A DNA stretch of 13,726 nt from Xanthobacteraceae bacterium (lineage in GTDB: Bacteria; Pseudomonadota; Alphaproteobacteria; Rhizobiales; Xanthobacteraceae). Position numbers and translations under genes: made by a program. The stretch is taken from the NCBI GenBank assembly GCA_030043285.1, contig JASHXZ010000797.1:1-13726 (forward strand), read 5' to 3'. This document shows positions 105 through 13,548 of the stretch, one piece after another (the first letter of the stretch is position 1; every line of letters begins with the position of its first letter). A model generated the notes under the pieces. The model saw nothing but the letters and a program-made list of their open reading frames with translations, was not told the DNA's origin and searched no databases.

Positions 105-122
105 CCGTCATTAAAGCGTCAT
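105..122 (+). promoter_or_regulatory. Candidate Pho box upstream of phnA
   Basis: The sequence CCGTCAT-TAAA-GCGTCAT forms two 7-mers 11 bp apart, the geometry of the PhoB operator (consensus CTGTCAT-N4-CTGTCAT/C). Each half matches the consensus at 5 or 6 of 7 positions. Two further CGTCAT hexamers lie just upstream at 74-79 and 88-93 but at 14 and 18 bp spacing, so they do not extend the array in phase. The box ends 43 bp before the phnA start. No convincing -10 hexamer follows it. PhoB control of the phosphonate operon is inferred. Confidence 0.5.
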
Positions 123-154
123 CGTGCCGGGTGCTGATCGATCGCTTCAAATTT

Positions 155-159
155 GGAGG
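155..159 (+). promoter_or_regulatory. Ribosome binding site fixing the phnA start
   Basis: GGAGG sits 6 nt before the ATG at 166. It favours this start over the upstream in-frame ATG at 124, whose extra 14 codons show no family similarity. Confidence 0.75.
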
Positions 160-165
160 TTTGCC

Positions 166-1458
166 ATGGCCACGTCTGCCGCGAGAACGAGTCCTGCTGC
201 AGACGTGACGGTCGAGGTCAATGGCCGCACTTATGCGGCGCCTAAACGTCCGACCGTCGTGATCGTCGTCGACGGCTTCGACCCGGCGTATCTCGACCAT
301 GGTTTCGCCAACGGCACGCTGCCGACGCTGAAATCGTTTCGCGAGCGCGGCTTTGTCGGGGTCGCCGACTGTTCGATGCCGAGTACGACAAATACCAACA
401 ACACGTCGATCGTGACCGGCGTGCCGCCCGCGGTGCACGGCATCAACGGCAACTACTATCTCGAAGCCGAAACCGGCCGGGAAATCATGATCACCGACGC
501 GAGCCGTTTGCGCGCCGACATCATTCTTGGCGCGTTCAGCCGCGCCGGCGTGCAAACCGCGGTCGTCACCGCCAAGGACAAGCTGCTCAAGGTATTGGCG
601 CACGGCATGACCGGCATCGGCTTCTCCGCCGAATACGCCGGCCGCGCCAATAGTGCGGATAATGGCATCGCCAATGTCGAGCAAATGGTCGGGCGGGCGC
701 AGCCCGACCAGTATTCGGCCGATCTCTCGTTGTTCGTGCTGGATGCCGGCGTGAAAATCCTGTCGTCTTACCGGCCGCAGCTCATGTATCTCTCCACCTC
801 CGACTACGTGCAGCACAAGCATGCGCCCGGCGAGCCGGAAGCGGATGAGTTTCACCACGCCGTCGACCGCCGCATTGCCGAGCTGATCGCGCTCGGCGCC
901 ACGGTCGCCGTGACGGCCGATCACGGCATGAACGACAAGGCCGCGACCGACGGGACGGCCAACGTGATCTATCTCGAGGAAGAGCTGAACGCGCGCTTCG
1001 GCGCCGCGACCGTGCGCGTGATTTGTCCGATCGCCGATCCGTTCGTACGCCACCACGGCGCGCTGGGATCGTTCGTGCGCGTGCACCTGCGCCAGCCGGC
1101 GGACGTCGCCGCCATGATGGCGTTTGCCCGGACGCTGCACGGCATCGAACTCGTCCTCGATAAGCGGCAAGTTTGCGCCCAGTTCGATCTGCCGCTCGAC
1201 CGAGAGGGAGATTTCGCCGTCTTCAGCGACCGCGATACCGTCGTCGGGGCGCGACGCGAGGACCACGACCTGAGCCAGCTGGCCGGGCACCGCCTGCGCT
1301 CGCATGGCGGCCTTGCCGAGCAAGAAGTTCCGTTCCTGCTGTCGCGGCCGCTCAACGCCGCGTACCGCAAGCGCGCGAACGAACAACGCTTGCACAACTA
1401 CGACATCTTCGATTTTGCCCTCAACGGCGTCGCCCAAGACGCGCGCACGCATCGCTAG
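166..1458 (+). CDS. phnA: Phosphonoacetate hydrolase
   Basis: This 430-residue protein belongs to the alkaline phosphatase superfamily. It should hydrolyse the C-P bond of phosphonoacetate to acetate and phosphate in the cytoplasm using two metal ions, normally zinc. The family's metal and catalytic residues are all visible: D36 in VVDGFDP, nucleophile T75 in the TNTNN loop, D213 and H217 in SDYVQHKH, D252-H253 in TADHGM and H380 in LRSHGG. The D36-to-T75 distance equals that of characterised PhnA. Length is normal and there is no signal peptide. It is the first gene of a plus-strand operon with two dehydrogenases, which would supply its substrate. A candidate Pho box lies upstream, whereas some pseudomonad PhnA enzymes are substrate-induced. 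The related nucleotide pyrophosphatase/phosphodiesterase family is the main alternative, but the TNxNN and VQHKHAPG signatures point to PhnA. Confidence 0.93.
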   Translation: MATSAARTSPAADVTVEVNGRTYAAPKRPTVVIVVDGFDPAYLDHGFANGTLPTLKSFRERGFVGVADCSMPSTTNTNNTSIVTGVPPAVHGINGNYYLEAETGREIMITDASRLRADIILGAFSRAGVQTAVVTAKDKLLKVLAHGMTGIGFSAEYAGRANSADNGIANVEQMVGRAQPDQYSADLSLFVLDAGVKILSSYRPQLMYLSTSDYVQHKHAPGEPEADEFHHAVDRRIAELIALGATVAVTADHGMNDKAATDGTANVIYLEEELNARFGAATVRVICPIADPFVRHHGALGSFVRVHLRQPADVAAMMAFARTLHGIELVLDKRQVCAQFDLPLDREGDFAVFSDRDTVVGARREDHDLSQLAGHRLRSHGGLAEQEVPFLLSRPLNAAYRKRANEQRLHNYDIFDFALNGVAQDARTHR

Positions 1459-1474
1459 ACGGACCCAACGGCAA

Positions 1475-2578
1475 ATGCGCAAAGCCCGAGCCGCTGTTTA
1501 CGAAGCGCCGAATACGCCGTTCGTTCTCAAGGAATTTCCGGTTCGTCCGGCACGGCGCGGCGAAGTGCTGGTGCGGGTCACCATGTCGACCATCTGCCGC
1601 TCGGATATCCATTCTTATGAGGGCCGGCGGCCCAATCCATGTCCGGGTATTCTCGGCCACGAGATCATCGGCGTCATCGAGGAAATCGGGGAGGGGGTCG
1701 ATACCGATATGCGGGGCGACCCGCTCAAGGTCGGCGATCGCATCACCTGGAGCGAATATTTCTTCGACGGCCAGTGCTACTACCGCGAAGTCCTCGACAT
1801 GCCGCAGAAGTGTCACGGCGTGCGCAAATACGGCCATGATCTCGCGGACCAGGACCCGCACTTCCTCGGCGGCTTTGCCGAATACTGCTACATTCTTCCT
1901 GGCACCTGGATCCTGAAACTCCCCGACGAACTAACCGACGAGGAGGCCACCCCGCTCAATTGCGGTGTGGCGACGATGGCGTCAGTGACCGAAGCTGCGG
2001 AAATCGCCCTTGGCGACGCGGTCGTCGTTCAAGGCTTGGGCCTTCTTGGTCTGTACGGCGCGGCGATGGCGAAGGTCCGCGGCGCGCGCTGCGTCATCGG
2101 TCTCGATGCTGTGGCGAGCCGCCTCGAGATCGCGAAAAGATTCGGCGTCGATCACGTCATCGATATCGCGCGCGTTCCAGCGCAAGCCGTCATTGATCAA
2201 GTGCGCAAGCTTTGCCGGCCCGATGGCGCCGACGCGGTGATCGAAGTTTGCGGGGTGCCGGATGTCATCCCGCAGGGTCTGGCGATGTTGCGCACTGGCG
2301 GTCGCTATGTGCTCGGCGGCCTGGTCAATCCCGGCGCCGACGTGACGATCGACGCCAACATGCTGGTCAAGCGCTGGATCACGCTCCGCGGCATTCACAA
2401 CTATCATCCACGGCATCTGATCCAGGCGCTCGACTTCGTTATGACGAACCGCACGCGCTTCCCGTTCAAGGACGTCGTCGATTCGAAATTTGCGTTGGCC
2501 GACCTCGACGCTGCGTTCAAGCGAGCCTCGGAGCGCACCGTGCTCCGCGCCGCCATCGTTCCCGCGCTGGCAGGATAA
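1475..2578 (+). CDS. Zinc-type alcohol dehydrogenase associated with phosphonate catabolism
   Basis: This 367-residue medium-chain dehydrogenase should oxidise an alcohol to an aldehyde with NAD(P). The N-terminal GroES-like domain carries catalytic-zinc residues C41 and H62-E63 (GHE). The Rossmann fold has GLGLLG, and the aspartate ending the second strand (VIGLD) suggests NAD. The stretch GDRITWS...PQKC...KYGH resembles the dehydrogenase group found beside phosphonate genes. Oddly, the structural-zinc lobe, normally four cysteines, keeps only C101 and C113: D98 and an arginine or nearby residue replace the others. The start at 1475 lies 16 nt after the phnA stop and only a weak Shine-Dalgarno is visible; longer in-frame starts would run deep into phnA. 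Given the neighbours, 2-hydroxyethylphosphonate is a plausible substrate, but this is inferred. Confidence 0.85.
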   Translation: MRKARAAVYEAPNTPFVLKEFPVRPARRGEVLVRVTMSTICRSDIHSYEGRRPNPCPGILGHEIIGVIEEIGEGVDTDMRGDPLKVGDRITWSEYFFDGQCYYREVLDMPQKCHGVRKYGHDLADQDPHFLGGFAEYCYILPGTWILKLPDELTDEEATPLNCGVATMASVTEAAEIALGDAVVVQGLGLLGLYGAAMAKVRGARCVIGLDAVASRLEIAKRFGVDHVIDIARVPAQAVIDQVRKLCRPDGADAVIEVCGVPDVIPQGLAMLRTGGRYVLGGLVNPGADVTIDANMLVKRWITLRGIHNYHPRHLIQALDFVMTNRTRFPFKDVVDSKFALADLDAAFKRASERTVLRAAIVPALAG

Positions 2579-2581
2579 CGC

Positions 2582-4033
2582 GTGCAGTCTCCGGCGCTCA
2601 ATTTCCGTCCGCGCGGCCTTTACATCGGCGGCCGTTGGGTCGCGCCGGCCGGTGGCGGAACGTTTCCTTCGATCAATCCATCAAACATGGAAAAACTCGC
2701 GGATATTCCGTCCGCCGGCGAGGTCGATGTCGATCTGGCAGTCCAAGCCGCCAAAGCCGCTTTCAAGGAGTGGTCGCGCGTGCCGATCAAGGAACGCGCC
2801 CGCTGCCTCACGCTGTTGGCCGAGCGCATCGAGCAGAACGCCGACGAACTCGCGCTGTTCGACGCGGTCGATTCCGGCAATGCCATCGTCGGCATGCGCG
2901 GCGACATGATCTGGACCGCCGAGTGGCTGCGCTATTGCGCCGGCCTCGTCACCGAAATCAAGGGCGAGACGTTTTCGCAAGGTGACCGCCATCTCAATCT
3001 GACGCGCCGGCAGCCGTTCGGCGTCGTCGCCAAGATCAACCCGTTCAACCATCCGTTTCGGTTCTGCGCCGAAAAGGCGGCGGCGCCGCTCGCCGCCGGC
3101 AATACGGTCGTGATCAAGGGCTCGGAGCAGGCGCCGCTATCCAGCCTTCGCCTCGGCGAATTGTGCGACGGACTGTTTCCTCCGGGCGTGGTCAACATCA
3201 TTGCCGGCGACGGCAAGGTCGGTTCGGCGCTGGTGCGGCATCCCGATGTGCGGCGGATCGGCTTCGTCGGCTCGGTGCCCACCGGCCGCGTCATCGCCCA
3301 GGAGGCGGCGGTCGGCCTCAAGCGCGTCAGTCTGGAACTGGGCGGCAAAAATCCGATCGTGATTTTTCCCGATGCCGATCCCACGACGGCAGCGGCAGCA
3401 GCCATCAAGGGCATGAACATGAACCGGCAGGGGCAATCGTGCAGCTCCACATCGCGGGTTTTCGTGCACGCAGCGCTGCACGACGAGGTCGTCGCCGAGC
3501 TCGTGGCGCTGGCGGACGCGCTGCCGATCGGCCTGCCGTGGCTCAAGGAGAACGACGTCGGGCCGATCGTCTCGCAGCGCCAATTCGACCGCGTCAAGGG
3601 CTTCATCGAATCGGCCAAAGCGGAAGGCGCGCAATTGCTCACCGGCGGCGGCAAACCGTCCGATCCGGCACTCTCGGCCGGCCTGTTCATGGCGCCGACC
3701 GTATTCGATCAGGTCACGCCGGCGATGCGGATCGGCCGCGAAGAAATATTCGGCCCGGTCATGTCGGTGATGATCTGGGACGATTACGAAGACATGCTGG
3801 CGAAGGTGAACGGCGTCGAATACGGCCTGACCGCGGCCATCGTCACCAACGATCTCGCCAAAGCGATGGAGACCGCGGAGCGGATCGAAGCAGGCTACGT
3901 CTGGATCAATTCCAGCGGCCGCTATATCGGGGCGCCGTATGGCGGTTGGAAGCAAAGCGGCATCGGCGAGGAAGAGTGCTTCGACGAGATCCTCAGCTAC
4001 ACGCAGGTCAAGAACATCAACATGCGATGGTGA
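2582..4033 (+). CDS. NAD(P)-dependent aldehyde dehydrogenase, possibly for phosphonoacetaldehyde
   Basis: This 483-residue protein is a complete aldehyde dehydrogenase, oxidising an aldehyde to the acid. Visible elements are N156 in NPFNHP, the nucleotide-binding turn GFVGS near 227-231, the general base E252 in LELGGKNP and the nucleophile C287 in GQSCSS. The start is a GTG 3 nt after the preceding stop, with AGGA 6 nt upstream at 2572-2575, so translation is probably coupled. The sequence looks more like betaine-aldehyde-type enzymes than the PhnY phosphonoacetaldehyde dehydrogenase described from Sinorhizobium. Because PhnA needs phosphonoacetate, conversion of phosphonoacetaldehyde to phosphonoacetate is the best contextual guess. 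The family is certain; the substrate is not. Confidence 0.88.
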   Translation: MQSPALNFRPRGLYIGGRWVAPAGGGTFPSINPSNMEKLADIPSAGEVDVDLAVQAAKAAFKEWSRVPIKERARCLTLLAERIEQNADELALFDAVDSGNAIVGMRGDMIWTAEWLRYCAGLVTEIKGETFSQGDRHLNLTRRQPFGVVAKINPFNHPFRFCAEKAAAPLAAGNTVVIKGSEQAPLSSLRLGELCDGLFPPGVVNIIAGDGKVGSALVRHPDVRRIGFVGSVPTGRVIAQEAAVGLKRVSLELGGKNPIVIFPDADPTTAAAAAIKGMNMNRQGQSCSSTSRVFVHAALHDEVVAELVALADALPIGLPWLKENDVGPIVSQRQFDRVKGFIESAKAEGAQLLTGGGKPSDPALSAGLFMAPTVFDQVTPAMRIGREEIFGPVMSVMIWDDYEDMLAKVNGVEYGLTAAIVTNDLAKAMETAERIEAGYVWINSSGRYIGAPYGGWKQSGIGEEECFDEILSYTQVKNINMRW

Positions 4034-4064
4034 GCTTTGCCTGACCGATGCGTGCTCACATCGA

Positions 4065-5486
4065 TCAAGCGCTCATCGCCCGCAGCCTCTGGCGCGGCAT
4101 TTGGAGGGGAACGGCTGCGTGTGCCGAGCGGCCGAGCGCTACATAGCGAAACTCGGCCCGCTTCATATGCTCGATGTCGTAAATGTTGCGCAGATCGACG
4201 ATCAGCGGCTGGGCCATCACGCGCCTTAAGTGAACGAGATCGAGCGTGCGGAATTGCTGCCACTCGGTGGCAATGACCAGAGCCTCGGCGCCATCAGCGG
4301 CGGCGTAAGCGCTGTCGCAATATTCGACGGCGGGCAGCGCCAGCTTCGCCTGCTCCATACCGGCCGGATCGTAAGCGCGCACCGTGGCGCCGAGATCCTG
4401 CAGGCCCGCGATCAGCGCGGTTGCCGGCGAATCGCGCGTATCGTCGGTGTCCGCCTTGAACGTCAAACCAAGCACGCCGATGGTCTTGCCGCTGACCGAC
4501 CCGTCAAGCGCCGCGGCGACCTTGCGCGCCATGGCATGCTTGCGGGCTTCGTTCACCGCACACGCCGTCTCGATCACGCGCAACTGCATGCCGTGATCAT
4601 GCGCGGTCTTGATCAGCGCCAGCCCATCCTTGGGCAGGCATGAGCCGCCGATACCGGGGCCGGCGCGTAGGAATTTCGGACCGATGCGTTCATCGAGGCC
4701 GATACCGCGGGCGACGTCCTGGACATCGCCACCGACACATTCGCACAGATCGGCTATTTCGTTGATGAAGCTGATTTTGGTGGCCAGAAAGGCGTTGGCG
4801 GCGTATTTGATCAGCTCCGCGTTGCGACGACCGACATGGACGAACGGCGCCACGTCAAGGAGCGGCCGGTAGACGTCGGCGAGCACGGCGCGGGCACGCG
4901 CGTCGTCGGTGCCGATGACGACACGGTCGGGATGCTTGAAATCCTTGATCGCGGTGCCTTCGCGGAGAAATTCCGGGTTGGAAACCACAACGATATCCGC
5001 GTTCGGCCGGCGCGCGCGAACAATGCGCTCGATCTCGTCGCCGGTGCCGACCGGAACCGTGGATTTGGTGACCAGAATCGCCGTGTCGGCGAGCAGCGGC
5101 GCTATGTCTTTGACCGCCTCATAAACAAAGCTCAAATCGGCGTGGCCGTCGCCGCGACGCGATGGCGTGCCGACCGCGATCAAGACGACATCAGCTTCGG
5201 CAATAGCGGCCGAATCCGCCGCGAAAGTAAGACGGCCCTGGCGGACATTCGCCTCCACGAGCGCGTCGAGGCCTGGCTCGAAGATCGGAATCTCACCTCT
5301 GTTGAGGGCCGCGATGCGGCGGCTGTCCTTGTCGATGCAGGTGACATGATGGCCAAAATCGGCAAGGCAGACCCCGGATACAAGGCCGACATATCCGACG
5401 CCAATCACGGCAACGCGCAGCCTGGTGTCGCCGTTGCGAAGATAAGGGCCGCTCTGCGGAAGCGCCTTTGCGGGATCGCGCCACAT
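4065..5486 (-). CDS. ugd: UDP-glucose 6-dehydrogenase
   Basis: This 473-residue enzyme oxidises UDP-glucose to UDP-glucuronate with two NAD. The N-terminal Rossmann motif is GVGYVG (29-34), the central helix carries K227 and N231 (ELIKYAANAFLA), and the catalytic cysteine is C283 in GGSCLPKD. A C-terminal UDP-binding domain follows (GLTFKADTDDTRDSP). The ATG at 5486 is chosen because GAGGAG lies 8 nt upstream (5495-5500). This leaves about 20 residues before the Rossmann strand, more than usual, but no nearer ATG or GTG is evident. It is convergent with the aldehyde dehydrogenase gene (31 bp gap) and transcribed alone. UDP-glucuronate serves capsule and LPS sugars. In some rhizobia it also serves glucuronosyl-diacylglycerol made under phosphate starvation, which would fit this neighbourhood but is inferred. 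A GDP-mannose dehydrogenase is the less likely alternative. Confidence 0.93.
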   Translation of the reverse strand: MWRDPAKALPQSGPYLRNGDTRLRVAVIGVGYVGLVSGVCLADFGHHVTCIDKDSRRIAALNRGEIPIFEPGLDALVEANVRQGRLTFAADSAAIAEADVVLIAVGTPSRRGDGHADLSFVYEAVKDIAPLLADTAILVTKSTVPVGTGDEIERIVRARRPNADIVVVSNPEFLREGTAIKDFKHPDRVVIGTDDARARAVLADVYRPLLDVAPFVHVGRRNAELIKYAANAFLATKISFINEIADLCECVGGDVQDVARGIGLDERIGPKFLRAGPGIGGSCLPKDGLALIKTAHDHGMQLRVIETACAVNEARKHAMARKVAAALDGSVSGKTIGVLGLTFKADTDDTRDSPATALIAGLQDLGATVRAYDPAGMEQAKLALPAVEYCDSAYAAADGAEALVIATEWQQFRTLDLVHLRRVMAQPLIVDLRNIYDIEHMKRAEFRYVALGRSAHAAVPLQMPRQRLRAMSA

Positions 5487-5790
5487 TCGATCAGCTCCTC
5501 TTGTTTGGTCCGGGGCCGTACAAGCTCTGCAGCAACGCCGAGCGGGACAAACGCCGCCAGTCGGACATCGGCCCGCAATGCGCAACGTAACGGTCCAGTG
5601 CCGAAGCGCTGCTCTCGTCGCCCAGGCTTTTAGCCCGCGGCACGTGACGGCGGTGTGACTCTGAGGGGTGCTTCGTTCAAAAAATGTTCAAAAAAATGCC
5701 GACACGGTCTGTCCAACAACAAGTCTCGGTCCGCCCGAAGCCGAATCCGTCCTTCGCCGCGTAACAATAGTGTCGTAGATCGATGGGAGA
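5487..5790. other. Divergent intergenic region between ugd and the membrane-protein gene
   Basis: About 300 bp without a convincing gene. Short open frames here lack ribosome sites and family similarity. It should hold the promoters of ugd (minus) and the UPF0104-like gene (plus). No clear -35/-10 pair or Pho box was found. The only notable structure is the A-rich direct repeat at 5676-5698. Confidence 0.6.
5676..5698 (+). repeat. Tandem A-rich direct repeat
   Basis: TTCAAAAAATG is followed immediately by the same unit with one extra A. The two A-tracts are about 12 bp apart, roughly one helical turn, in otherwise GC-rich DNA. This could bend the DNA or act as an UP-like element or operator for either divergent gene. 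The function is not known. Confidence 0.6.
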
Positions 5791-6969
5791 GTGCGGCAGC
5801 GAATCACCGCGCCGTGCTGGAGCAGCATCACCTTGGATGGCGCCTCGAATGTGCTGAGCGCCATCGCGACGGCGGCCCGCAAGCGAATTGGATGGAGTAC
5901 CCTTACCGGCGCCGCCAGCCTCGCAATTGTCGCGGTATCCACGGTCGCACTGTACAAGCTGCTGCACGGCATCGACGTTCAAATTTTTGTTGCTGCTCTG
6001 AGAGCTCAGTCGCCCCGGGGCCTGCTGCTGGCGGGCGGGTTTGTCATCGCCAGCTATTTTATGCTGACGTGCTACGACGTATTTGCTTTACGCGCGATCG
6101 GCCGCAACGCCATACCGTATCGGGCGGCCGCCTTGGCGAGCTTCACGAGCTACACGATCGGACACAATGTCGGCGCGACCACCTTTACCGCTGGCGTCAT
6201 CCGTTATCGTGTTTATGCTTTCTGGGGCTTACGGATTCGCGATATCGCCGCTATCGCCTTCATTACCAGTCTCACCTACTGGCTCGGCAACGCACTTGTG
6301 CTTGGTTTCGCATTGCTGGCGGCGCCGGACGCAGTCGGCAGTCTCGATCGGTTGCCGATGCCGGGCAACCGCCTGATCGGGTTGGCGCTGCTGATCGGCC
6401 TTGCCGGCTATTTCCTGTGGCTTCTCTCCAGTCCACGCCGCCTCGGTACGTCGAACTGGCAAATTATCGTCCCCGGGCCGCGGTCGACGCTTGTGCAGCT
6501 AGCCATCGCCAGTCTTGACCTCGTGTTCGTCACCCTGGCGATGTATGTGCTGCTGCCGCCGCAGCCGGCGCTCGATTTTCCGCATTTGCTGACGATTTTT
6601 GCCACCGCCTTGCTGATCGGCGTCGCCAGTCATGCGCCGGGCAGTCTCGGCGTGATGGAAGCCGTCATGCTTCTCGGTCTGCCGCAATTCCAAAAGGAGG
6701 AATTGTTGGCTTGCCTCCTGACCTTTCGTCTCCTTTACTTTGTCCTGCCATTTGCCATCGCGGTGCTTTTGTTGGGTCTGCGTGAATGTCGCAAGGTGTT
6801 AGGCGGAGTTCGCTCGAGAAGGCGCCTGCTGTCGTCGCTTTATGTCTTGCGCAGGACTGTGAGACGGCCGCCGGCCGAAAGAGGCCGCAGCTTGGCCCGG
6901 GCGCATTCTGAACTTGGGCAGCGCGGCCACAGGAGAGCACGTGAAGAGACTTTATACGGCGACCGTTAA
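5791..6969 (+). CDS. MprF-like/UPF0104 integral membrane protein
   Basis: This protein of up to 392 residues has about eight hydrophobic segments, near residues 37-57, 77-99, 113-130, 152-177, 195-213, 233-255, 265-285 and 305-330. The motifs GHNVG (124-128), RYRVY (139-143) and HAPGSLGVME (281-290) fit the lysyl-phosphatidylglycerol synthase transmembrane family, the flippase half of MprF. The soluble aminoacyl-transferase half is absent, as in many stand-alone members. An arginine-rich tail of about 60 residues follows the last helix. The start is uncertain: GTG at 5791 has a purine run directly abutting it, while GTG at 5851 has only a weak GGATGG. The 3' end overlaps dgkA by 29 bp, so the two are probably co-translated. 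A role in lipid translocation is inferred from the family. Confidence 0.78.
   Translation: MRQRITAPCWSSITLDGASNVLSAIATAARKRIGWSTLTGAASLAIVAVSTVALYKLLHGIDVQIFVAALRAQSPRGLLLAGGFVIASYFMLTCYDVFALRAIGRNAIPYRAAALASFTSYTIGHNVGATTFTAGVIRYRVYAFWGLRIRDIAAIAFITSLTYWLGNALVLGFALLAAPDAVGSLDRLPMPGNRLIGLALLIGLAGYFLWLLSSPRRLGTSNWQIIVPGPRSTLVQLAIASLDLVFVTLAMYVLLPPQPALDFPHLLTIFATALLIGVASHAPGSLGVMEAVMLLGLPQFQKEELLACLLTFRLLYFVLPFAIAVLLLGLRECRKVLGGVRSRRRLLSSLYVLRRTVRRPPAERGRSLARAHSELGQRGHRRAREETLYGDR
6931..6935 (+). promoter_or_regulatory. Ribosome binding site fixing the dgkA GTG start
   Basis: AGGAG lies 5 nt before the GTG at 6941, inside the end of the preceding gene. It favours this start over the in-frame TTG at 6914. 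Confidence 0.7.
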
Positions 6970-7300
6970 CTCACTGCGCGGGCTGCGCTATGGCTTGCGC
7001 CACGAAACCGCCCTGCGTGAAGAGCTGATCGTGCTTGCGGCGGCTGTACCGCTCGGCATCCCGATCGCCCCGACCTGGGTCTGGTACATCGCCATGATCG
7101 GGGCGCTGCTCGGCCTTCTGAGCGTCGAGTTGTTGAATACGGCCATAGAGAAGCTCGCCGACCATACGACCCAAGAGCGCCATCCCCAGATCGGGATGAT
7201 CAAGGATTATGGCTCGGCCGCGGTGTTGTGCATGCTGTGCGTCGCGGCGCTGATATGGATCGCGGCAATTGCCCTGCGTCTTGGCCTGTTTTCACCATGA
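6941..7300 (+). CDS. dgkA: Diacylglycerol kinase (prokaryotic DgkA type)
   Basis: This 119-residue protein is close to the E. coli DgkA length of about 122. It is a small three-helix membrane kinase that phosphorylates diacylglycerol to phosphatidate at the inner membrane. The family's active-site signature is intact: E63 and N66 in VELLNTAIE, E70, D74, then K88-D89 in IKDYGSAAVL. Helices fall near residues 29-45, 46-64 and 92-114. The GTG start overlaps the end of the membrane-protein gene by 29 bp, indicating an operon. A PlcP-like phospholipase C, which would release diacylglycerol, follows 94 bp downstream, so DgkA could return unused diacylglycerol to phospholipid synthesis. An undecaprenol kinase role is possible but typical of Gram-positive homologues. 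Confidence 0.93.
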   Translation: MKRLYTATVNSLRGLRYGLRHETALREELIVLAAAVPLGIPIAPTWVWYIAMIGALLGLLSVELLNTAIEKLADHTTQERHPQIGMIKDYGSAAVLCMLCVAALIWIAAIALRLGLFSP

Positions 7301-7332
7301 CTGCGTCAATTGCTAATGCGCGTTAACCGATA

Positions 7333-7350
7333 GTGTCATTGTGCTGCAAT
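7333..7350 (+). promoter_or_regulatory. Candidate degenerate Pho box upstream of plcP
   Basis: GTGTCAT-TGTG-CTGCAAT has the 7-4-7 geometry. The first half matches CTGTCAT at 6 of 7 positions and the second at 5 of 7. It lies in the 94 bp between dgkA and the phosphoesterase gene, 44 bp before the start codon. No good -10 follows. The plcP genes of rhizobia are known PhoB targets, which makes the site more credible than its match alone. Confidence 0.42.
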
Positions 7351-7394
7351 GGAACGCAATTACGCAGCATGCGGGCAACAAATAGGCGTGATTC

Positions 7395-8216
7395 GTGGAA
7401 TTTGAGCACGGCACGATCGGGTTCCGCACGCTCTTCATTTCCGACGTTCACCTCGGTGCGCGCGGTTGCCAGGCCGAGCGCCTGCTCGATTTCCTGCGCT
7501 ATCACGACGCCCACACCATCTACCTGGTTGGCGATATCGTCGACGGCTGGCAGCTGCGCTCGGGCTGGTACTGGCCGCAGGACCACAATGACGTAGTGCA
7601 GAAGCTGCTCCGCAAGGCCCGCAAGGGCACCCGCGTCATTTATCTTCCCGGCAATCACGACGAGTTCCTACGCCAATATTACGGCACCCACTTCGGCGGC
7701 ATCGAAGTGGTGGAGACGGCCATTCATCAGTCGGCCGACGGCCACCGCTATCTGGTCGTGCACGGCGATATGTTCGATCTCGTGGTCAAGCACGCGCGCT
7801 GGCTCGCGCTGCTCGGCGACACGGCCTACGATTTCGCGCTTTTTGTCAATCGCTACTTCAATGCGATTCGCCGACGCCTGGGATTTTCGTACTGGTCGCT
7901 GTCGCAATGGGCCAAGCATAAGGTCAAGAACGCGGTGAATTACATCGGCGCGTTCGAGCAGACCCTTGCCGCCGAGGCGCAGCGCCACAAGGTCGACGGC
8001 GTGATCTGCGGTCATATCCATCATGCCGTAATCCACGACCATTTCGGCATCCGCTACATCAATTGCGGCGATTGGGTCGAAAGCTGCACCGCGGTTGCCG
8101 AGCATGCGGACGGACGCTTCGAGATCATCACCTGGACTGGAGAGCAAGACGTCGCCGGCCCGCCTGCCCAGGCGCCCAGCCCCGGGCTCAAGCAAGAAAC
8201 CGGAATGGCGGCCTAA
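7395..8216 (+). CDS. plcP: Metallophosphoesterase, probable PlcP phospholipase C
   Basis: This 273-residue calcineurin-like phosphoesterase is of the COG2908/LpxH-like group. All metal ligands are visible: D17 and H19 in SDVHLG, D47 in GDIVDGW, N87-H88-D89 in GNHDE, H123 and D125 in HGD, and H207 and H209 in GHIHH. Homologues of this length in Sinorhizobium and marine alphaproteobacteria are PlcP, which cleaves phosphatidylcholine and related lipids to diacylglycerol and a phospho-head group under phosphate limitation. The GTG start has a weak AGG 8 nt upstream. Features supporting PlcP over UDP-diacylglucosamine hydrolase LpxH are that alphaproteobacteria generally use LpxI, the candidate Pho box, and the neighbours dgkA, phoU and pmtA. 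No signal peptide is seen. The residues after about 250 are a proline-rich, variable tail. The substrate is inferred. Confidence 0.8.
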   Translation: MEFEHGTIGFRTLFISDVHLGARGCQAERLLDFLRYHDAHTIYLVGDIVDGWQLRSGWYWPQDHNDVVQKLLRKARKGTRVIYLPGNHDEFLRQYYGTHFGGIEVVETAIHQSADGHRYLVVHGDMFDLVVKHARWLALLGDTAYDFALFVNRYFNAIRRRLGFSYWSLSQWAKHKVKNAVNYIGAFEQTLAAEAQRHKVDGVICGHIHHAVIHDHFGIRYINCGDWVESCTAVAEHADGRFEIITWTGEQDVAGPPAQAPSPGLKQETGMAA

Positions 8217-8250
8217 GCGCACGGCGACGGCACGCAAGTGCAAGCCGGCG

Positions 8251-8517
8251 TCAACCGTGCCGGATTTTCAGAGCGAGAATTGCGGTCGTTATTGCCAACG
8301 TGGCGGCGCTTGAACCGATCAGCGGGGCGTCCGCGATGGCGAGGCCGTAGATGAGCCAGAGCAGGACGCCTGCAACGCAGAGTAGCGTCCCCGACATTGA
8401 AATGGCCCGCGCTTCGCGACTGCGAAGGATTTTCAGCGCTTGCGGTACCCAGCACAACGTCGTCATGACGGCGGCAGTTGTGCCGATGGCATCGACCAAA
8501 GCTGGAGTCTCAAGCAT
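8251..8517 (-). CDS. SemiSWEET-type PQ-loop transporter
   Basis: This 88-residue protein has three predicted helices, near residues 8-26, 38-58 and 64-83. It carries the PQ-loop signature in helix 1 (CWVPQALKILRSREA) and the following S-x-S-G segment (ISMSG), matching bacterial SemiSWEET sugar transporters that work as dimers. Length is typical. The ATG at 8517 has only an AGGA one base upstream, so translation initiation looks weak. It is convergent with plcP (34 bp gap) and divergent from phoU. The substrate is unknown; characterised members carry sugars such as glucose or sucrose. Confidence 0.85.
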   Translation of the reverse strand: MLETPALVDAIGTTAAVMTTLCWVPQALKILRSREARAISMSGTLLCVAGVLLWLIYGLAIADAPLIGSSAATLAITTAILALKIRHG

Positions 8518-8628
8518 GTCCTGTTTCGTCGAGCGAATCGGTGCGATTGCGCCTTATCGACCCATTCCATGTGGCTCTCATGACAAGCGGCATCGACGGG
8601 CATGTGCATTGAGGGGAAATCGGCCCTG

Positions 8629-8646
8629 CTGTCATCAGGCAGTCAT
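8629..8646 (+). promoter_or_regulatory. Strong candidate Pho box upstream of phoU
   Basis: CTGTCAT-CAGG-CAGTCAT pairs a perfect consensus half with one matching 6 of 7, exactly 11 bp apart. The -10-like TAGAAT at 8657-8662 begins after a 10 bp gap, the arrangement of PhoB-activated promoters in which the box replaces the -35. Confidence 0.72.
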
Positions 8647-8656
8647 CAGTAAAGCC

Positions 8657-8662
8657 TAGAAT
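8657..8662 (+). promoter_or_regulatory. -10 element of the phoU promoter
   Basis: TAGAAT matches TATAAT at 5 of 6 positions. It predicts transcription starting near 8669, downstream of the A of the in-frame ATG at 8668, so translation should begin at 8704 instead. Confidence 0.55.
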
Positions 8663-8703
8663 CATCAATGCGTTGCGACAGACGCCGGAAAGTGCGGCAA
8701 ATC

Positions 8704-9438
8704 ATGATTGTATCCGATCACACCACCAAGGTGTTCGACGCCGATCTGATCAAGCTCACCCAAAAAGTCGCCGAGATGGGCGGCTTCGCCCAGCGGCAGG
8801 TCATCGACGCCATGGACGCGCTGGCGCGGCGCGATTCGGTTCTCGCCCAGCAGGTCATCGCGGCGGACGGAACGGTCGATGAGTTCCAGCGGCAGATCGA
8901 GCAAAGAGCCGTCGAGACGATTGCGTTGCGCCAACCGATGGCGGTCGACTTGCGCTCCCTGGTTGCGATCATGCGGATAGCCAACGACCTCGAGCGGATC
9001 GGCGATTTGGCGAAGAATATCGGCAAGCGCGCGATCGCCATGCGCAACGAATATCCGGCGCGAACCCTGGCGCGCGGCCTGCACCACATGACGACGCTTG
9101 CCGTCGCCCAGCTGAGCGTGGTGCTCGACAGCTTCGTCGGTCGCAGTGCGCCGAAAGCGCTCAAGGTTTGGGAAGACGACAGGAACATCGATGCGCTTTA
9201 TGTATCGCTGTTTCGCGAATTGCTTACCTACACGATGGAGGACCCGGGTTCGATTTCGATCTGCATTCACCTTCTGTTTTGCGCCAAGAACATCGAGCGG
9301 ATCGGCGATCACACGACCAATATCGCCGAGGCGGTTCACTACATGGTCGAAGGCCACGCCATTGCCGGCGAGCGGCCGAAGGGCGACCCGTTCGGCTTTG
9401 CGGGGGAAGCACGCGGCAGCCTTGTCGTCACCGCCTAG
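8704..9438 (+). CDS. phoU: Phosphate signalling regulator PhoU
   Basis: This 244-residue all-helical protein has the two repeated metal-binding motifs of PhoU: ANDLERIGDLAKNI (93-106) and AKNIERIGDHTTNI (194-207). It is a cytoplasmic peripheral protein that links the PstSCAB transporter to the PhoR/PhoB system and represses the Pho regulon when phosphate is ample. Length is full. The ATG at 8704 has a weak GGAAAG 11 nt upstream. In most relatives phoU closes the pst operon, but here it stands alone between the transporter gene and psd, with its own strong candidate Pho box. It may be a second, locus-specific copy or a relocated sole copy. It is convergent with psd (14 bp gap). Confidence 0.95.
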   Translation: MIVSDHTTKVFDADLIKLTQKVAEMGGFAQRQVIDAMDALARRDSVLAQQVIAADGTVDEFQRQIEQRAVETIALRQPMAVDLRSLVAIMRIANDLERIGDLAKNIGKRAIAMRNEYPARTLARGLHHMTTLAVAQLSVVLDSFVGRSAPKALKVWEDDRNIDALYVSLFRELLTYTMEDPGSISICIHLLFCAKNIERIGDHTTNIAEAVHYMVEGHAIAGERPKGDPFGFAGEARGSLVVTA

Positions 9439-9452
9439 TCGCGCGGGCGTTG

Positions 9453-10313
9453 TCACGGCATTCGCATCAGCGGCTGGCCGAATCGAATCATCGCGCCGTT
9501 CTGGACATTGTCGCAGAGCGAGAAGCTGCCCGGCGCGAACACGATGATCGTCGAGCCGTGCTCGAACCACCCCAATTCGTCGCCCTTGCGGAACTCGGCG
9601 CTGCAAAAGGCCGTCCCACCGCCGTTGCTCTTGAGGCGTTCGAGGTCGAAGAAATTCAGGCGGATGCCGGAAACCAGGATGGCTCCGACCGGCACCAGAC
9701 TGATGGCATCACCGGTCGCGAGCCTGGCGTGCAGCACGGCGCGCTCGTTCTTGCAATAGAGTTTGTCGACGCGCCGCAGCGCGGCCGGATTGACGTTCCA
9801 GCTGTCCCCCGCAATGTAACCGACCCGCTCGATGCGGCAGTCGTGAGGAGCGTGGAACCGGTGATACATCGCCGATGTCAGACGCAGCGTCACATAGCAG
9901 CCGTCGCGATGCGATTCGACGAGCCTTCGATCGCAGAGGAGCTCCGTCAGTGCGTAGCTTCTGCCCTTGATCTGATAGAGCTTGGTGCCGCAGATTCGCC
10001 CATGCGCGCCGACAATGGCGTCGCATGGGCTGACCAGAACGTTTGCCGCCGGGTCGATCGGCCTCGCTCCGCGCTTTAATCGACGCGTGAAGCAATCATG
10101 CATGCTGCGGAATTCGGCGCTGTCGGCCTCGCTCAAATCGAGGCCGGAGAAATAGCGCCACAGGCCGATCGACACGTCCCGGACCAGCGGCTGCTCGATG
10201 CGGCTGAACCAGCCGACGAATCGGCTCAACGACCGGCGCGGCAGACGGTTGGTGACCAGGAAGTTGACGTCGTCCTGGTGCAAAATCCGCAGCAGGCGGC
10301 TCTTGACTGTCAT
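9453..10313 (-). CDS. psd: Phosphatidylserine decarboxylase proenzyme (long, E. coli type)
   Basis: This 286-residue enzyme decarboxylates phosphatidylserine to phosphatidylethanolamine at the inner membrane. The self-cleavage motif is GST at 253-255 (FEHGSTIIV). Cutting between G253 and S254 would give the alpha chain with a pyruvoyl group. The catalytic acid and histidine are visible as D98 (SPCDA) and H154 (YHRFHAPHDC). No transmembrane helix is evident. The ATG at 10313 is preferred over 10370, which would overlap the divergent gene; GGGAG lies about 11 nt upstream. No pssA is beside it, although alphaproteobacterial psd genes often adjoin pssA and are of a shorter type. It could therefore be a second decarboxylase. 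Its product is the substrate of the nearby PmtA. Confidence 0.9.
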   Translation of the reverse strand: MTVKSRLLRILHQDDVNFLVTNRLPRRSLSRFVGWFSRIEQPLVRDVSIGLWRYFSGLDLSEADSAEFRSMHDCFTRRLKRGARPIDPAANVLVSPCDAIVGAHGRICGTKLYQIKGRSYALTELLCDRRLVESHRDGCYVTLRLTSAMYHRFHAPHDCRIERVGYIAGDSWNVNPAALRRVDKLYCKNERAVLHARLATGDAISLVPVGAILVSGIRLNFFDLERLKSNGGGTAFCSAEFRKGDELGWFEHGSTIIVFAPGSFSLCDNVQNGAMIRFGQPLMRMP

Positions 10314-10324
10314 GTCGGTGTAAA
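10307..10324 (+). promoter_or_regulatory. Candidate Pho box upstream of the aminotransferase gene
   Basis: CTGTCAT-GTCG-GTGTAAA has a perfect first half and a second half matching 4 of 7, 11 bp apart. Its CAT is also the complement of the psd start codon, so bound PhoB would sit on the psd start. A TATAGC hexamer begins after a 10 bp gap, the same distance as at phoU. Confidence 0.5.
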
Positions 10325-10334
10325 CTCCCCGCGC

Positions 10335-10340
10335 TATAGC
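10335..10340 (+). promoter_or_regulatory. -10-like element of the aminotransferase promoter
   Basis: TATAGC matches TATAAT at 4 of 6 positions. It predicts a transcription start near 10347, at or within a few bases of the ATG at 10349, hence a leaderless or nearly leaderless message. This agrees with the lack of a Shine-Dalgarno. Confidence 0.45.
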
Positions 10341-10348
10341 CTGATTCG

Positions 10349-12037
10349 ATGGATTGGCACGGCCTGACATTGGCCACTTGCGGCGTCAGCACGGCCGTTC
10401 TGGCGGCCTCGCTGGCGACGGTGAAGCGCGGCGTGTGGCCCGGCGCCGGCAAACATCCGTCGCTCGCCGGACACGTCCGTTTCGCGAAACGCATTGCGTC
10501 GCTGGTACGCTTTTACGAATACGATGAGAGCCGGTTCTTTTGCGCGGACGATGCGCCGCCGCAAGTCGCCGCCTGCCGTCGCGCCGGCTTCATGCGGCTT
10601 GCCGCGCTTTATCAGACGCGTTTTGCCAAGACCGCCGCGCTTGGCGCCGAGGCGCAGAGCGGCATCTCCGATTTGCAGTTTACCGCGGCCTATCGCGTGC
10701 CATTCCAGTTCAGCGGCTTCGTGCGCCGGCATCTCAAAATTGGAACTTTCGTGCAATCGTCCGCGGGCGTCACCGTGGAGGATATCGACGGCAATCGCTT
10801 CTATGATTTGACCGGTTCCTACGGCGTCAACGTCCTTGGCTATGATTTCTACAAGGGAGCGATCGCGCGCGCGGTCGAGCGCGTGCAGACGCTTGGTCCA
10901 GTGCTCGGAGCCTACCATCCGATCGTTGTCGACAATGTGCGGCGGCTGCAACAGATTTCCGGACTCGACGAGGTCTCGTTCCACATGTCCGGAACCGAGG
11001 CGGTCATGCAAGCGGTGCGGCTTGCGCGCTATCACACCAAGCGGCCCACCCTCGTGCGTTTTGCCGGCGCCTATCACGGCTGGTGGGGCGACGTGCAGCC
11101 CGGCATCGGTAACCCGTTGCCGGCCCAGGACACTCTTACGTTGCGGGATCTTTCGGAAGGGGCGTTGCGCGTTCTGAAACGGCGGGGCGATATTGCCTGC
11201 GTTCTGGTGAATCCGCTGCAGGCGCTGCATCCCAATGCGAATGCGCCGACCGATTCGGCGCTGCTCGACAGCGCACGCAGCGCGGATTTTGACAGAGAGG
11301 CCTACGCCGAGTGGCTGCGGCGATTGCGCGCCGTATGCAGCGAACAGAACATCGTGCTGATTTTCGACGAGGTGTTTGTCGGCTTCCGGCTGGCACTCCG
11401 CGGCGCCCAGGACTATTTCGGGGTCGCCGCCGACCTCGTCACCTATGGCAAGACGGTCGGCGGCGGCTTGCCGGTCGGCGTCATTTGCGGCCGCAAGGAG
11501 CTGATGAGGCGCTTCCGCGACGATCGGCCGGCCGACATCTGCTTCGCCCGCGGCACGTTCAACTCGCACCCCTACGTCATGGCGGCGATGAACGAATTTC
11601 TTCGCTACATCGACACGCCGCAGGCGCGCGAGCTTTATCGCGATCTCGACGCGACCTGGAACCACAGGGCGTCGCGGCTCAACGGACGGCTGGCGGAGCA
11701 GGGCTTGCCGGTGCGGGTCGTCAACATGTCCTCGATCTGGACGGTCTGCTATACGCAGCCGAGCCGATACAATTGGATGCTGCAATATTACCTGCGTGCC
11801 GAGGGTTTGGCGCTGGCATGGATCGGCACCGGCAGGCTCATTTTCAGCCTCAATTATACCGATGCCGATTTTGATGCGGTGGCCGATCGCTTTGTCGCTG
11901 CCGCCAAGACGATGAACGAAGACGGTTGGTGGTGGTGCGACCCGGCGATGACGAACGGCTCGATCAAACGCGCGATCTTCAAGGAGATGATCGCGCATCG
12001 CTTCCTGCCCGAGCCTCGCAAGCGCAAAGCCGCGTGA
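10349..12037 (+). CDS. Membrane-anchored class III aminotransferase (glutamate-1-semialdehyde aminomutase-like)
   Basis: This 562-residue PLP enzyme has a hydrophobic N-terminal segment (about 5-24) followed by positive residues, predicting a single anchor with the enzyme in the cytoplasm. A linker of unknown fold (about 30-130) comes next. The fold type I domain (about 131-540) shows SGTEA (214-218), the YHG stretch (242-244), the cofactor-ring pair D340-E341 and the PLP lysine K368 (TYGKTVGGG). The catalytic part most resembles GSA aminomutase and the aminotransferase domains of lipopeptide/polyketide synthases, but it is over 100 residues longer than the roughly 430 of HemL. It is therefore unlikely to be the haem enzyme. 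It is divergent from psd with 35 bp between start codons and convergent with the DUF962-like gene (7 bp gap). No Shine-Dalgarno is seen. An amino-lipid or lipid-aldehyde substrate is only a guess. Confidence 0.85.
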   Translation: MDWHGLTLATCGVSTAVLAASLATVKRGVWPGAGKHPSLAGHVRFAKRIASLVRFYEYDESRFFCADDAPPQVAACRRAGFMRLAALYQTRFAKTAALGAEAQSGISDLQFTAAYRVPFQFSGFVRRHLKIGTFVQSSAGVTVEDIDGNRFYDLTGSYGVNVLGYDFYKGAIARAVERVQTLGPVLGAYHPIVVDNVRRLQQISGLDEVSFHMSGTEAVMQAVRLARYHTKRPTLVRFAGAYHGWWGDVQPGIGNPLPAQDTLTLRDLSEGALRVLKRRGDIACVLVNPLQALHPNANAPTDSALLDSARSADFDREAYAEWLRRLRAVCSEQNIVLIFDEVFVGFRLALRGAQDYFGVAADLVTYGKTVGGGLPVGVICGRKELMRRFRDDRPADICFARGTFNSHPYVMAAMNEFLRYIDTPQARELYRDLDATWNHRASRLNGRLAEQGLPVRVVNMSSIWTVCYTQPSRYNWMLQYYLRAEGLALAWIGTGRLIFSLNYTDADFDAVADRFVAAAKTMNEDGWWWCDPAMTNGSIKRAIFKEMIAHRFLPEPRKRKAA

Positions 12038-12044
12038 TCGGCTC

Positions 12045-12686
12045 TCAACTCGCCCGGGGCAATTCCTCGGCGGTCTCCTCGTCCCATTCGCTGCCGATGC
12101 CGGGATCGATCAGCTCGCCGCGCAGCAGCGCCAGCGGCGCCTTGTGATAGAGCTTGATGTCATGGAACGGGTCGGTGAGAATCTTGGTGGCCCAGACAAG
12201 TCCGGTCTGCACGTCCTTGATGAGGAATAATTGGACAGTGCGGAATAGGACGCCGCCGACGCCGAGGCCGAGCCAGATCATTCCGACCTGGCGGACGAGC
12301 TCGGTTTTGCTGGTGGCGGGCGAAAATAAGCCGAAAAAAGTCGGATTGAAGTAAAGCGACAGCGGCGACAGCGCCCAGATCGTCAACAGCACGACCTTGC
12401 GCTGCAGATTGTAGCCGACCTTGATTTCCTCCTTGTATTCGTGGCTGGCGTCGTTGACCTCGTCATAACCCTTCGGCTCGAAGAAGAAATGCCCGGTCTG
12501 CCGCGTCGTCATCGCGACCAGCCAGCCGGCCAGCGCCGACACGGCGGGATCCTTGAACAGCATTACATAAGAAAACAGGAAGCTCAGCGCGCTGACGAAA
12601 TGCAGCGATTGATTGACCCTGCTGTGATGATAATAGCGATGATCATCCCATCGCTGGATTCGCAGTGTTTCAAGAAAGCCGGCCAT
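12045..12686 (-). CDS. His-rich multi-pass membrane protein with DUF962/Mpo1-like motifs
   Basis: This 213-residue protein has hydrophobic segments near 27-43, 46-61, 98-115 and 134-153. Conserved-looking polar residues cluster at membrane edges: H16, H20-H21, N25, H29, then GHFFFE at 65-70 and H82. The pattern YxHHxxxNxxLH plus GHxxFE recalls DUF962/Mpo1, membrane Fe(II) dioxygenases that alpha-oxidise 2-hydroxy fatty acids in yeast, but the match is by eye and distant. The ATG has GGAGG 6 nt upstream (12693-12697). The acidic tail is soluble. It is convergent with the aminotransferase and has a candidate Pho box upstream, separating it from pmtA. A role in fatty-acyl or lipid chemistry is inferred. 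It may otherwise be an uncharacterised membrane protein. Confidence 0.72.
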   Translation of the reverse strand: MAGFLETLRIQRWDDHRYYHHSRVNQSLHFVSALSFLFSYVMLFKDPAVSALAGWLVAMTTRQTGHFFFEPKGYDEVNDASHEYKEEIKVGYNLQRKVVLLTIWALSPLSLYFNPTFFGLFSPATSKTELVRQVGMIWLGLGVGGVLFRTVQLFLIKDVQTGLVWATKILTDPFHDIKLYHKAPLALLRGELIDPGIGSEWDEETAEELPRAS

Positions 12687-12732
12687 AAGTGCCCTCCACG
12701 TTAAGGTCGTCGGGCAACGCTATGGCGATTCG

Positions 12733-12750
12733 ATGAATCCAGCATGACAG
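12733..12750 (-). promoter_or_regulatory. Candidate Pho box upstream of the DUF962-like gene
   Basis: Read on the minus strand, CTGTCAT-GCTG-GATTCAT has a perfect first half and a second half matching 4 of 7 (core TTCAT), 11 bp apart. It points at the DUF962-like gene, whose start is 46 bp away. Only a weak -10 (TAGCGT) falls 10 bp downstream. Confidence 0.42.
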
Positions 12751-12846: not shown

Positions 12847-13548
12847 TCACGCAACGGCGCGCGTCGGCGTTGCCGTGTCTTGCCCGCTGGAGGCGCCATC
12901 GCCTTTGGTGAAGCGGATCAGCGAGAAATGACCGAACGGCGGCATGGCGCGGCGCTCAATGAGCTGCACGCCGTTGGTCTTTTCCGCCCACTGGGCATAG
13001 CGCTGGAACGAAAATTCGGTGCGCCAGCCGAGCTTCCGCGCCGCCGGCGCAAACCACTTCTCGAGCGCCCGCCGCAAGCCGGCCTCGGCGCCGACGCGGC
13101 TCACCAGGACGATTTCGCCGCCGGGGCGGAGCACGCGGGCGAATTCGTCAAGGGTCGCTTCAGGATTGGGCACCGTGGTGATGACGTACTGCGCCACGAT
13201 GACGTCGAACGAAGCGTCGGGGAAATCCAGATGCTCGGCATCCATGACCAGCAGCGCTTCGACGTTGGCCAAGCCCAGCTCGGCCACGCGCTGCTGCGCC
13301 TTGCGCAGCATCGGTTCGGAAATATCGACGCCGCAGATGCGCAGGTTCGGCGAGTAATACGGCAGCGATAATCCGGTCCCGACTCCCACTTCGAGGACCC
13401 GGCCGCCGACGCGCTCGGCGGCGGCGATCGCGGCGTGGCGTCCCTGTTCGAACACGGCGCCGAACACGAGGTCGTAAAGCGGTGCCCAACGTGCGTACGC
13501 CTTGGTGATGGTCTCTTTGTCGAGTTCGGCGTGCAGCGCGTCAGTCAT
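12847..13548 (-). CDS. pmtA: Phosphatidylethanolamine N-methyltransferase (Rhodobacter type)
   Basis: This 233-residue class I SAM-dependent methyltransferase shows YARWAPLYD near the N-terminus (18-26), SAM motif I VLEVGVGTGL (51-60), an acidic loop GVDIS (73-77) and the post-motif region FDVIVAQYVITTVPNP. The YARWAPxYDxxFG opening is characteristic of Rhodobacter-type PmtA, which methylates phosphatidylethanolamine to mono-, di- and trimethyl forms (phosphatidylcholine). AGAGGA lies 6 nt before the ATG. The gene starts 34 bp after the stop of an upstream glycosyltransferase and is probably co-transcribed with it. The last 20 residues are low-complexity. UbiE/COQ5-like quinone methyltransferases are the alternative, but they lack the YARWAP signature. 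Confidence 0.85.
   Translation of the reverse strand: MTDALHAELDKETITKAYARWAPLYDLVFGAVFEQGRHAAIAAAERVGGRVLEVGVGTGLSLPYYSPNLRICGVDISEPMLRKAQQRVAELGLANVEALLVMDAEHLDFPDASFDVIVAQYVITTVPNPEATLDEFARVLRPGGEIVLVSRVGAEAGLRRALEKWFAPAARKLGWRTEFSFQRYAQWAEKTNGVQLIERRAMPPFGHFSLIRFTKGDGASSGQDTATPTRAVA

Follow-up and report, generated by a model that had tools for sequence, protein, structure and literature searches.

Where soils and waters are poor in phosphate, bacteria replace their phospholipids by lipids free of phosphorus; the described routes to this exchange, PlcP with Agt or BtaAB, leave some lipids and genomes unexplained. Lipid remodelling by PlcP and Agt under phosphate limitation has already been published (PMC9239053, PMC4796936), as have putative Pho boxes at plcP clusters (PMC4796936); in the available parts of these reports, a Methylosinus plcP-agt mutant loses glucuronosyl-diacylglycerol (PMC9239053), and Pelagibacter Agt in Escherichia coli gives rise to monoglycosyl- and glucuronosyl-diacylglycerol (PMC4796936). 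Here we analyse a 13,726-nucleotide stretch of Xanthobacteraceae DNA (‘the window’), which is one whole contig (JASHXZ010000797.1) of a metagenome-assembled genome (MAG) at 65.7% completeness. Judged from its sequence, the window is very probably a membrane-lipid remodelling locus controlled by PhoB, with Pho boxes at plcP, at phoU2 (a second phoU), at a class III aminotransferase gene (AT3) and at a DUF962 gene, and with a fifth, box-like site at phnA that is probably due to chance.

The locus has several described relatives. With the PlcP-Agt clusters of Methylosinus trichosporium, Pelagibacter and Agrobacterium, as far as the available text describes them, it shares a PlcP-like phosphoesterase, a GT4 glycosyltransferase (in relatives of the window) and Pho boxes; it differs in its psd2/AT3/DUF962/PmtA core, which has a shared box at the junction, and the word ‘aminotransferase’ does not occur in the main text of PMC9239053 or PMC4796936. 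With the Pho regulon of Proteobacteria it shares the repeat consensus, the 11-bp period, the position in promoters and the spacing to the −10 element seen at pst promoters of the same genus, whereas here a single locus holds several candidate boxes, found at genes that include a second phoU, a DUF962 gene and one for an uncharacterised aminotransferase. Paired PhoU paralogues, known in the partial accounts available from Mycobacterium, Staphylococcus and Streptococcus, likewise amount to two PhoU per genome, but in this case the second PhoU is encoded outside the pst operon, within a lipid locus, behind a conserved candidate Pho box of its own. A preliminary description of the window had seen a common phosphorus theme in its genes; the theme is, rather, membrane-lipid remodelling, and that description did not recognise phoU as a second paralogue.

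The same description had reported five pairs of CTGTCAT-like 7-mers with an 11-bp period. Searching both strands with CTGTCATNNNNCTGTCAT at up to three mismatches recovered exactly these five, at 105–122, 7333–7350, 8629–8646 and 10307–10324 on the plus strand and 12733–12750 on the minus strand, against a mean of 0.70 in 200 shuffled sequences, one of which reached five. Exact CTGTCAT was likewise found three times in the window, each time inside one of the five sites, but 15/200 shuffles also reached three (mean 1.09), and on its own this count is weak evidence. Genome-wide, the search returned 141 matches in 4.17 Mb, or approximately 0.46 per 13.7 kb, compared with 52 for a reversed-pattern control.

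A weight matrix was derived from promoters outside the locus. Twenty pstC loci of the same genus were scanned for sites with at least 11/14 consensus letters, yielding a training set of 21 boxes (16 pst, 5 divergent), each followed, after a gap of 10 bp, by a −10 hexamer; 4/20 loci held no qualifying box. None of the training boxes came from the locus of the window, all 21 were checked as present in the pstC loci, and they score 18.4–26.0 bits on their own matrix. Five genomes of the genus, including the window's own, carry a second conserved box, CTGTCATNAAACTGAAAT, divergent from the pst box upstream of pstC (L080–L083 and L085).

Six sites in the window score at least 9.7 bits on this matrix (phoU2 19.5, plcP 16.6, AT3 14.0, phnA 10.4, SemiSWEET 10.2 and DUF962 9.8), compared with 1.13 in shuffled sequence, where 1/300 reached six; none of 500 column-permuted matrices reached six. 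Scoring with a PhoB matrix against shuffled sequence had been put forward as a check on the proposed boxes, and it came out in their favour, with phoU2, plcP and AT3 ranking first to third and their 7-4-7 repeats resembling the pst boxes of the genus. The identical 10-bp gap to a −10-like hexamer, noted previously, is present at phoU2 (TAGAAT) and AT3 (TATAGC) and also at DUF962 (TAGCGT); it is not clear at phnA.

Conservation was assessed as the best site within 200 bp upstream of each orthologue, at a threshold of at least 9 bits and with 200 permuted matrices as control, in 13 syntenic loci of the genus and in a set based on AT3 (80 of 546 loci encoding an AT3 relative, five of the 80 overlapping the genus loci). 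The phoU2 box (8629–8646, plus strand, CTGTCAT-CAGG-CAGTCAT, with −10 TAGAAT at 8657–8662), the highest-scoring in the window, recurs with its TAGAAT in 12/13 genus orthologues; in the thirteenth (L070) a phoU2-facing box lies elsewhere in the SemiSWEET–phoU2 spacer, and 14/16 loci reach the threshold overall. The plcP box (7333–7350, plus strand, GTGTCAT-TGTG-CTGCAAT) is in place, at 16.5–18.1 bits, in all seven genus orthologues that have upstream DNA, and 3/7 loci outside these reach 9 bits, giving 10/14 in total. The DUF962 box (12733–12750, minus strand) is poorer, its second half, GATTCAT, being a weak match; its hexamer TAGCGT lies at 12722–12717 on the minus strand. The stretch is conserved in six genus relatives (seven genus rows), matching the consensus at 10–11/14 letters in the window and in four relatives and at fewer in L066 and L067. 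Nevertheless, 37/76 DUF962 loci have an upstream site of at least 9 bits, versus a permuted-matrix mean of 1.4 (maximum 13). Permuted means for plcP, phoU2, AT3 and DUF962 lie between 0.13 and 1.4, and those for the full set of genes scored between 0 and 1.4.

A local PhoB regulon is thus well supported, as a prediction, for plcP, phoU, AT3 and DUF962, since the matrix comes from promoters elsewhere and the sites are conserved in relatives. The preliminary description had extended this regulon to phnA and had argued that the weaker boxes cohere as a set; this stands for AT3 and DUF962, which recur in relatives, and fails for phnA. The phnA site (105–122, plus strand) scores 10.4 bits, by itself no better than chance, as a shuffled window is expected to hold 0.8 sites of this quality. 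A phnA match was found in 34/198 genomes of the family and 30 loci were examined, the window among them: 0/29 of the others reach 9 bits, the best being 6.5 on the gene strand and 8.3 on the other, and a phnA of the same genus at 80% identity has 3.6 bits upstream. Membership of phnA in the Pho regulon was accordingly rejected, its box probably being a chance match.

Two sites absent from the preliminary description face other genes. On the minus strand at 8569–8586, TTGTCAT-GAGA-GCCACAT faces SemiSWEET with GATAAG 10 bp downstream (10.2 bits), and we regard it as a moderate candidate: 3/13 loci reach 9 bits (permuted mean 0.24, maximum 7), and similar sites of 4.9–14.6 bits occur in 10/13. 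A weak candidate, GAGTCAC-ACCG-CCGTCAC at 5644–5661 (minus strand), faces the uridine diphosphate (UDP)-glucose dehydrogenase gene with CTAAAA 10 bp downstream (4.4 bits with the −10) and is in place in two relatives (L064 and L066), of which 0/2 reach 9 bits. PmtA, DgkA and the MprF-like gene were considered as separately boxed genes and rejected on their counts of loci with at least 9 bits upstream (PmtA 3/47, permuted maximum 12; DgkA 0/5; MprF-like 2/10).

The psd2/AT3 junction is the most telling site. The AT3 box (10307–10324, plus strand) is followed by −10 TATAGC at 10335–10340 and by the AT3 start at 10349. The five boxes had been described as each lying upstream of, and facing, a start codon, and they do, but the first 7-mer of this one is also the start of the divergent psd2 (ATGACAG, minus strand), so the site is partly coding. 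It could be aligned in seven genus relatives, with varying strength. Upstream of AT3, 56/81 loci have a site of at least 9 bits, versus a permuted mean of 1.4 (maximum 35); in the direction of psd, 5/81 do so (permuted maximum 10). Outside the genus, 72 loci hold the divergent pair, and in these the register overlapping the psd start scores at least 13 bits in 34 and at least 8 bits in 46. In the window AT3 starts 8 nt past the −10 hexamer, and the spacing from box to start is 23–24 bp in both the window and Bradyrhizobium, suggesting that the AT3 messenger RNA is leaderless, as we predict. Since the psd start codon forms the first half of this box, PhoB bound at the junction would sit where psd must be transcribed; PhoB probably activates AT3 and may occlude psd2. 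A precedent is orfA-pit of Sinorhizobium meliloti, where, in the part of the report available, the translation start comes shortly after the box and starvation for phosphate represses pit (PMC3131613).

One might suppose instead that the junction box is simply the start-codon context of psd combined with a divergent promoter of another kind, given that its first 7-mer overlaps the psd start codon and that ATG stands at the aligned psd start in 58/72 junctions. The second half-site, however, lies beyond psd coding and keeps a sharp 11-bp register: outside the genus it averages 0.0 bits in register, compared with −9 to −16 at 17 other offsets, and this register ranks 8 of 5040 column permutations. 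Moreover, the TA of the −10 lies exactly 10 bp downstream in 40/45 non-genus junctions scoring at least 9 bits, and we judge such an origin distinctly improbable. Slightly less improbable, though still unlikely, is that phoU2 and plcP alone have real Pho boxes and that the rest are coincidences of GTCA-rich intergenic DNA. The phnA site is indeed not conserved, the DUF962 and SemiSWEET sites of the window reach only some 10 bits, a score that about one site attains in shuffled sequence, and some members of the genus have a weak AT3 box; but orthologues of AT3 and DUF962 in different classes carry the site upstream far more often than permuted matrices give on average, and the AT3 site holds a fixed register and a fixed −10 spacing. 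Finally, another OmpR-family regulator recognising similar 7-bp direct repeats might bind in place of PhoB. Genomes of the genus carry tens of related regulators (27–77 matches to the PhoB model each, nearly all of those listed below cut-off), yet the matrix was taken from pst promoters, which are classic PhoB targets, the sites share both box and −10 spacing with these, and the genes are of the kind that serves lipids under phosphate limitation; we hold this to be the least probable of the three.

Several observations nevertheless weigh against control of these genes by PhoB, or against parts of it. The training boxes were chosen by their match to the CTGTCAT consensus, and the matrix, though independent of the locus, therefore still depends on this consensus. 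Own-genome stretches totalling 106 kb, a sample biased upward because it was mostly chosen for pattern matches, contain sites scoring as high as 18.7 bits that lack a plausible promoter or −10, and a high matrix score alone is consequently no proof. The five genus AT3 boxes scored ranged from 3.8 to 12.2 bits, and the conservation of the AT3 box is in part that of the psd start (ATG AC), which is coding. After crude removal of similar junctions, 19/43 reach 9 bits and 11/43 reach 13; 11 of the failing non-redundant junctions have no ATG at the aligned psd start, and their register may have been misplaced. Phosphatidylethanolamine synthesis would continue even with psd2 occluded, because another psd, of the shorter type, exists elsewhere in 18/20 genomes of the genus (the 19 others and the window's own MAG, in which, incomplete as it is, it was not found). 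The SemiSWEET and UDP-glucose dehydrogenase sites are weak, and the GT4 gene has a site of at least 13 bits in none of the five distinct genus loci with upstream DNA. PhoB can also bind sites without effect, according to the available part of one report (PMC10294691). Lastly, PhoB scores above its curated cut-off in 18/20 genus genomes but not in the MAG of the window, probably because of the incompleteness of this MAG.

Records from alpha-, beta- and gammaproteobacteria repeatedly show the psd, AT3 and DUF962 core, in many cases accompanied by a candidate Pho box of this kind. Among the 80 AT3-based loci, psd was present in 79, DUF962 in 76, PmtA in 46 and PlcP in 12. A GT4 glycosyltransferase, detected at 30–100% identity to two queries from L164 and L175, is encoded in 68/94 loci (13 genus loci, 80 AT3-based loci and the window, five contigs being counted twice), and of the 66 with sufficient upstream sequence 28 show a site of at least 13 bits before it. 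In genus relatives it follows the PmtA-like gene; the contig of the window ends before that point. The GT4 of relatives is inferred to be Agt. No description of the psd/AT3/DUF962 module was found in the titles and abstract openings of the open-licence literature. With its Pho boxes, the module points to an unstudied set of enzymes in the lipid response to phosphate starvation, and it is present in genera having cultured strains (Bradyrhizobium, Nitrobacter and Polynucleobacter).

Under control by PhoB the locus might operate as follows. Upon exhaustion of phosphate, PhoR would phosphorylate PhoB; bound at the boxes, which would stand in for a −35 element, PhoB would recruit RNA polymerase. 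PlcP would cleave phospholipids to diacylglycerol, from which the neighbouring GT4, with UDP-glucuronate supplied by UDP-glucose dehydrogenase, would form phosphorus-free glycolipids, while AT3, DUF962 and PmtA would make or modify an amine-bearing lipid; that AT3 has such a product is a guess from the genes that accompany it. PhoU2 would damp PhoB activity as feedback, and PhoB lying over the psd2 start codon would activate AT3 and hinder psd2. More speculatively, psd2/AT3/DUF962/PmtA could be an undescribed pathway, widespread in Proteobacteria, to a phosphorus-free amine or betaine lipid, in which one site for PhoB, covering the start codon of psd2, acts as a two-way switch (AT3 on, psd2 down), but we consider this more doubtful than not by some way.

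The genes themselves are as follows. The PlcP-like metallophosphoesterase (7395–8216, plus strand; PF00149, 52.8 bits), whose name is inferred, falls below cut-off on LpxH models (56 versus 134 and 52 versus 190 bits). Upstream of it lie an MprF-like membrane protein gene (5791–6969, plus strand; PF03706, 26.8 bits, below the cut-off of 33.4) and a DgkA-type diacylglycerol kinase gene (6914–7300, plus strand; PF01219, 95.6 bits), and, on the minus strand, UDP-glucose 6-dehydrogenase (4065–5447, open frame to 5585; TIGR03026, 455 bits, cut-off 190). SemiSWEET (8251–8517, minus strand; NF037968, 80.4 bits, cut-off 80) is followed by phoU2 (8704–9438, open frame from 8668, plus strand; TIGR02135, 226 bits). 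Orthologues of phoU2 at 70–92% identity are found in 13/19 other genomes of the genus, and a further PhoU at 55–58% is listed in 12 of those 13, identifying phoU2, on sequence grounds, as the second, pst-unlinked paralogue; another PhoU was not found in the window's own 65.7%-complete MAG. The phosphatidylserine decarboxylase Psd2 is of the longer type (9453–10313, open frame to 10370, minus strand; PF02666, 172 bits).

AT3 (10349–12037, plus strand; PF00202, 127 bits) is a class III aminotransferase with a predicted N-terminal helix. Among solved structures, the aminotransferase domain of mycosubtilin synthase MycA comes closest both in sequence and in predicted fold (27% identity, top structural match), and AT3 shares the class III pyridoxal phosphate (PLP) fold of glutamate-1-semialdehyde aminomutase and the MycA-type aminotransferases, unlike which it bears the N-terminal helix. 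One of the residues that do not vary across 29 sequences is lysine 368, which we take to be the PLP lysine. The name glutamate-1-semialdehyde aminomutase, given to relatives in a database, was rejected for AT3, which scores 191.9 bits against a cut-off of 398. The DUF962/Mpo1-like membrane protein (12045–12686, minus strand) scores 22 bits on PF06127, the Mpo1 dioxygenase family, just under the gathering cut-off of 24, and 25/27 aligned members match PF06127 at E ≤ 0.01; its predicted model (mean predicted local distance difference test score, pLDDT, 84.6) found no meaningful match among solved folds (best E 0.94). A PmtA-like methyltransferase (12847–13548, minus strand; NF045882, 163 bits, cut-off 390) comes last.

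At the other end of the window, phnA encodes a phosphonoacetate hydrolase (166–1458, plus strand; TIGR02335, 659 bits, cut-off 408) and adjoins genes for a zinc alcohol dehydrogenase (1475–2578) and an aldehyde dehydrogenase (2582–4033) on the same strand. This trio recurs in L228 of the genus. At the 13 loci of the cluster in the genus, several of them truncated, no match to the trio exceeded 60 bits, and among 12 genus genomes listed phnA was found solely in that of the window and in G001.

Boxes of related type were seen elsewhere. In L069 (11415–11457) a GT21 (HpnI-like) glycosyltransferase gene is divergent from plcP, with a GAGTCAC-type box like that facing UDP-glucose dehydrogenase in the window, and frames similar to this GT21 also diverge from plcP in L068 and L071. 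The top match to the Pho box among the own-genome stretches (L076, 6460–6477, 26.0 bits) lies between two frames, presumably encoding an FTR1-like permease and an outer-membrane-protein-like product, and is not, as we take it, at a known phosphate gene.

The boxed promoters also contain GANTC, which we take to be the CcrM methylation motif. It occurs at 7390, 8659, 10343, 12727 and 12735 and is conserved in the genus at these promoters; nine copies fall in the 1266 intergenic bp, compared with approximately 4.4 expected in proportion to the window. At the DUF962 promoter the GANTC motifs form a palindrome, GATTCATCGAATC, which overlaps the end of the box and extends toward the −10.

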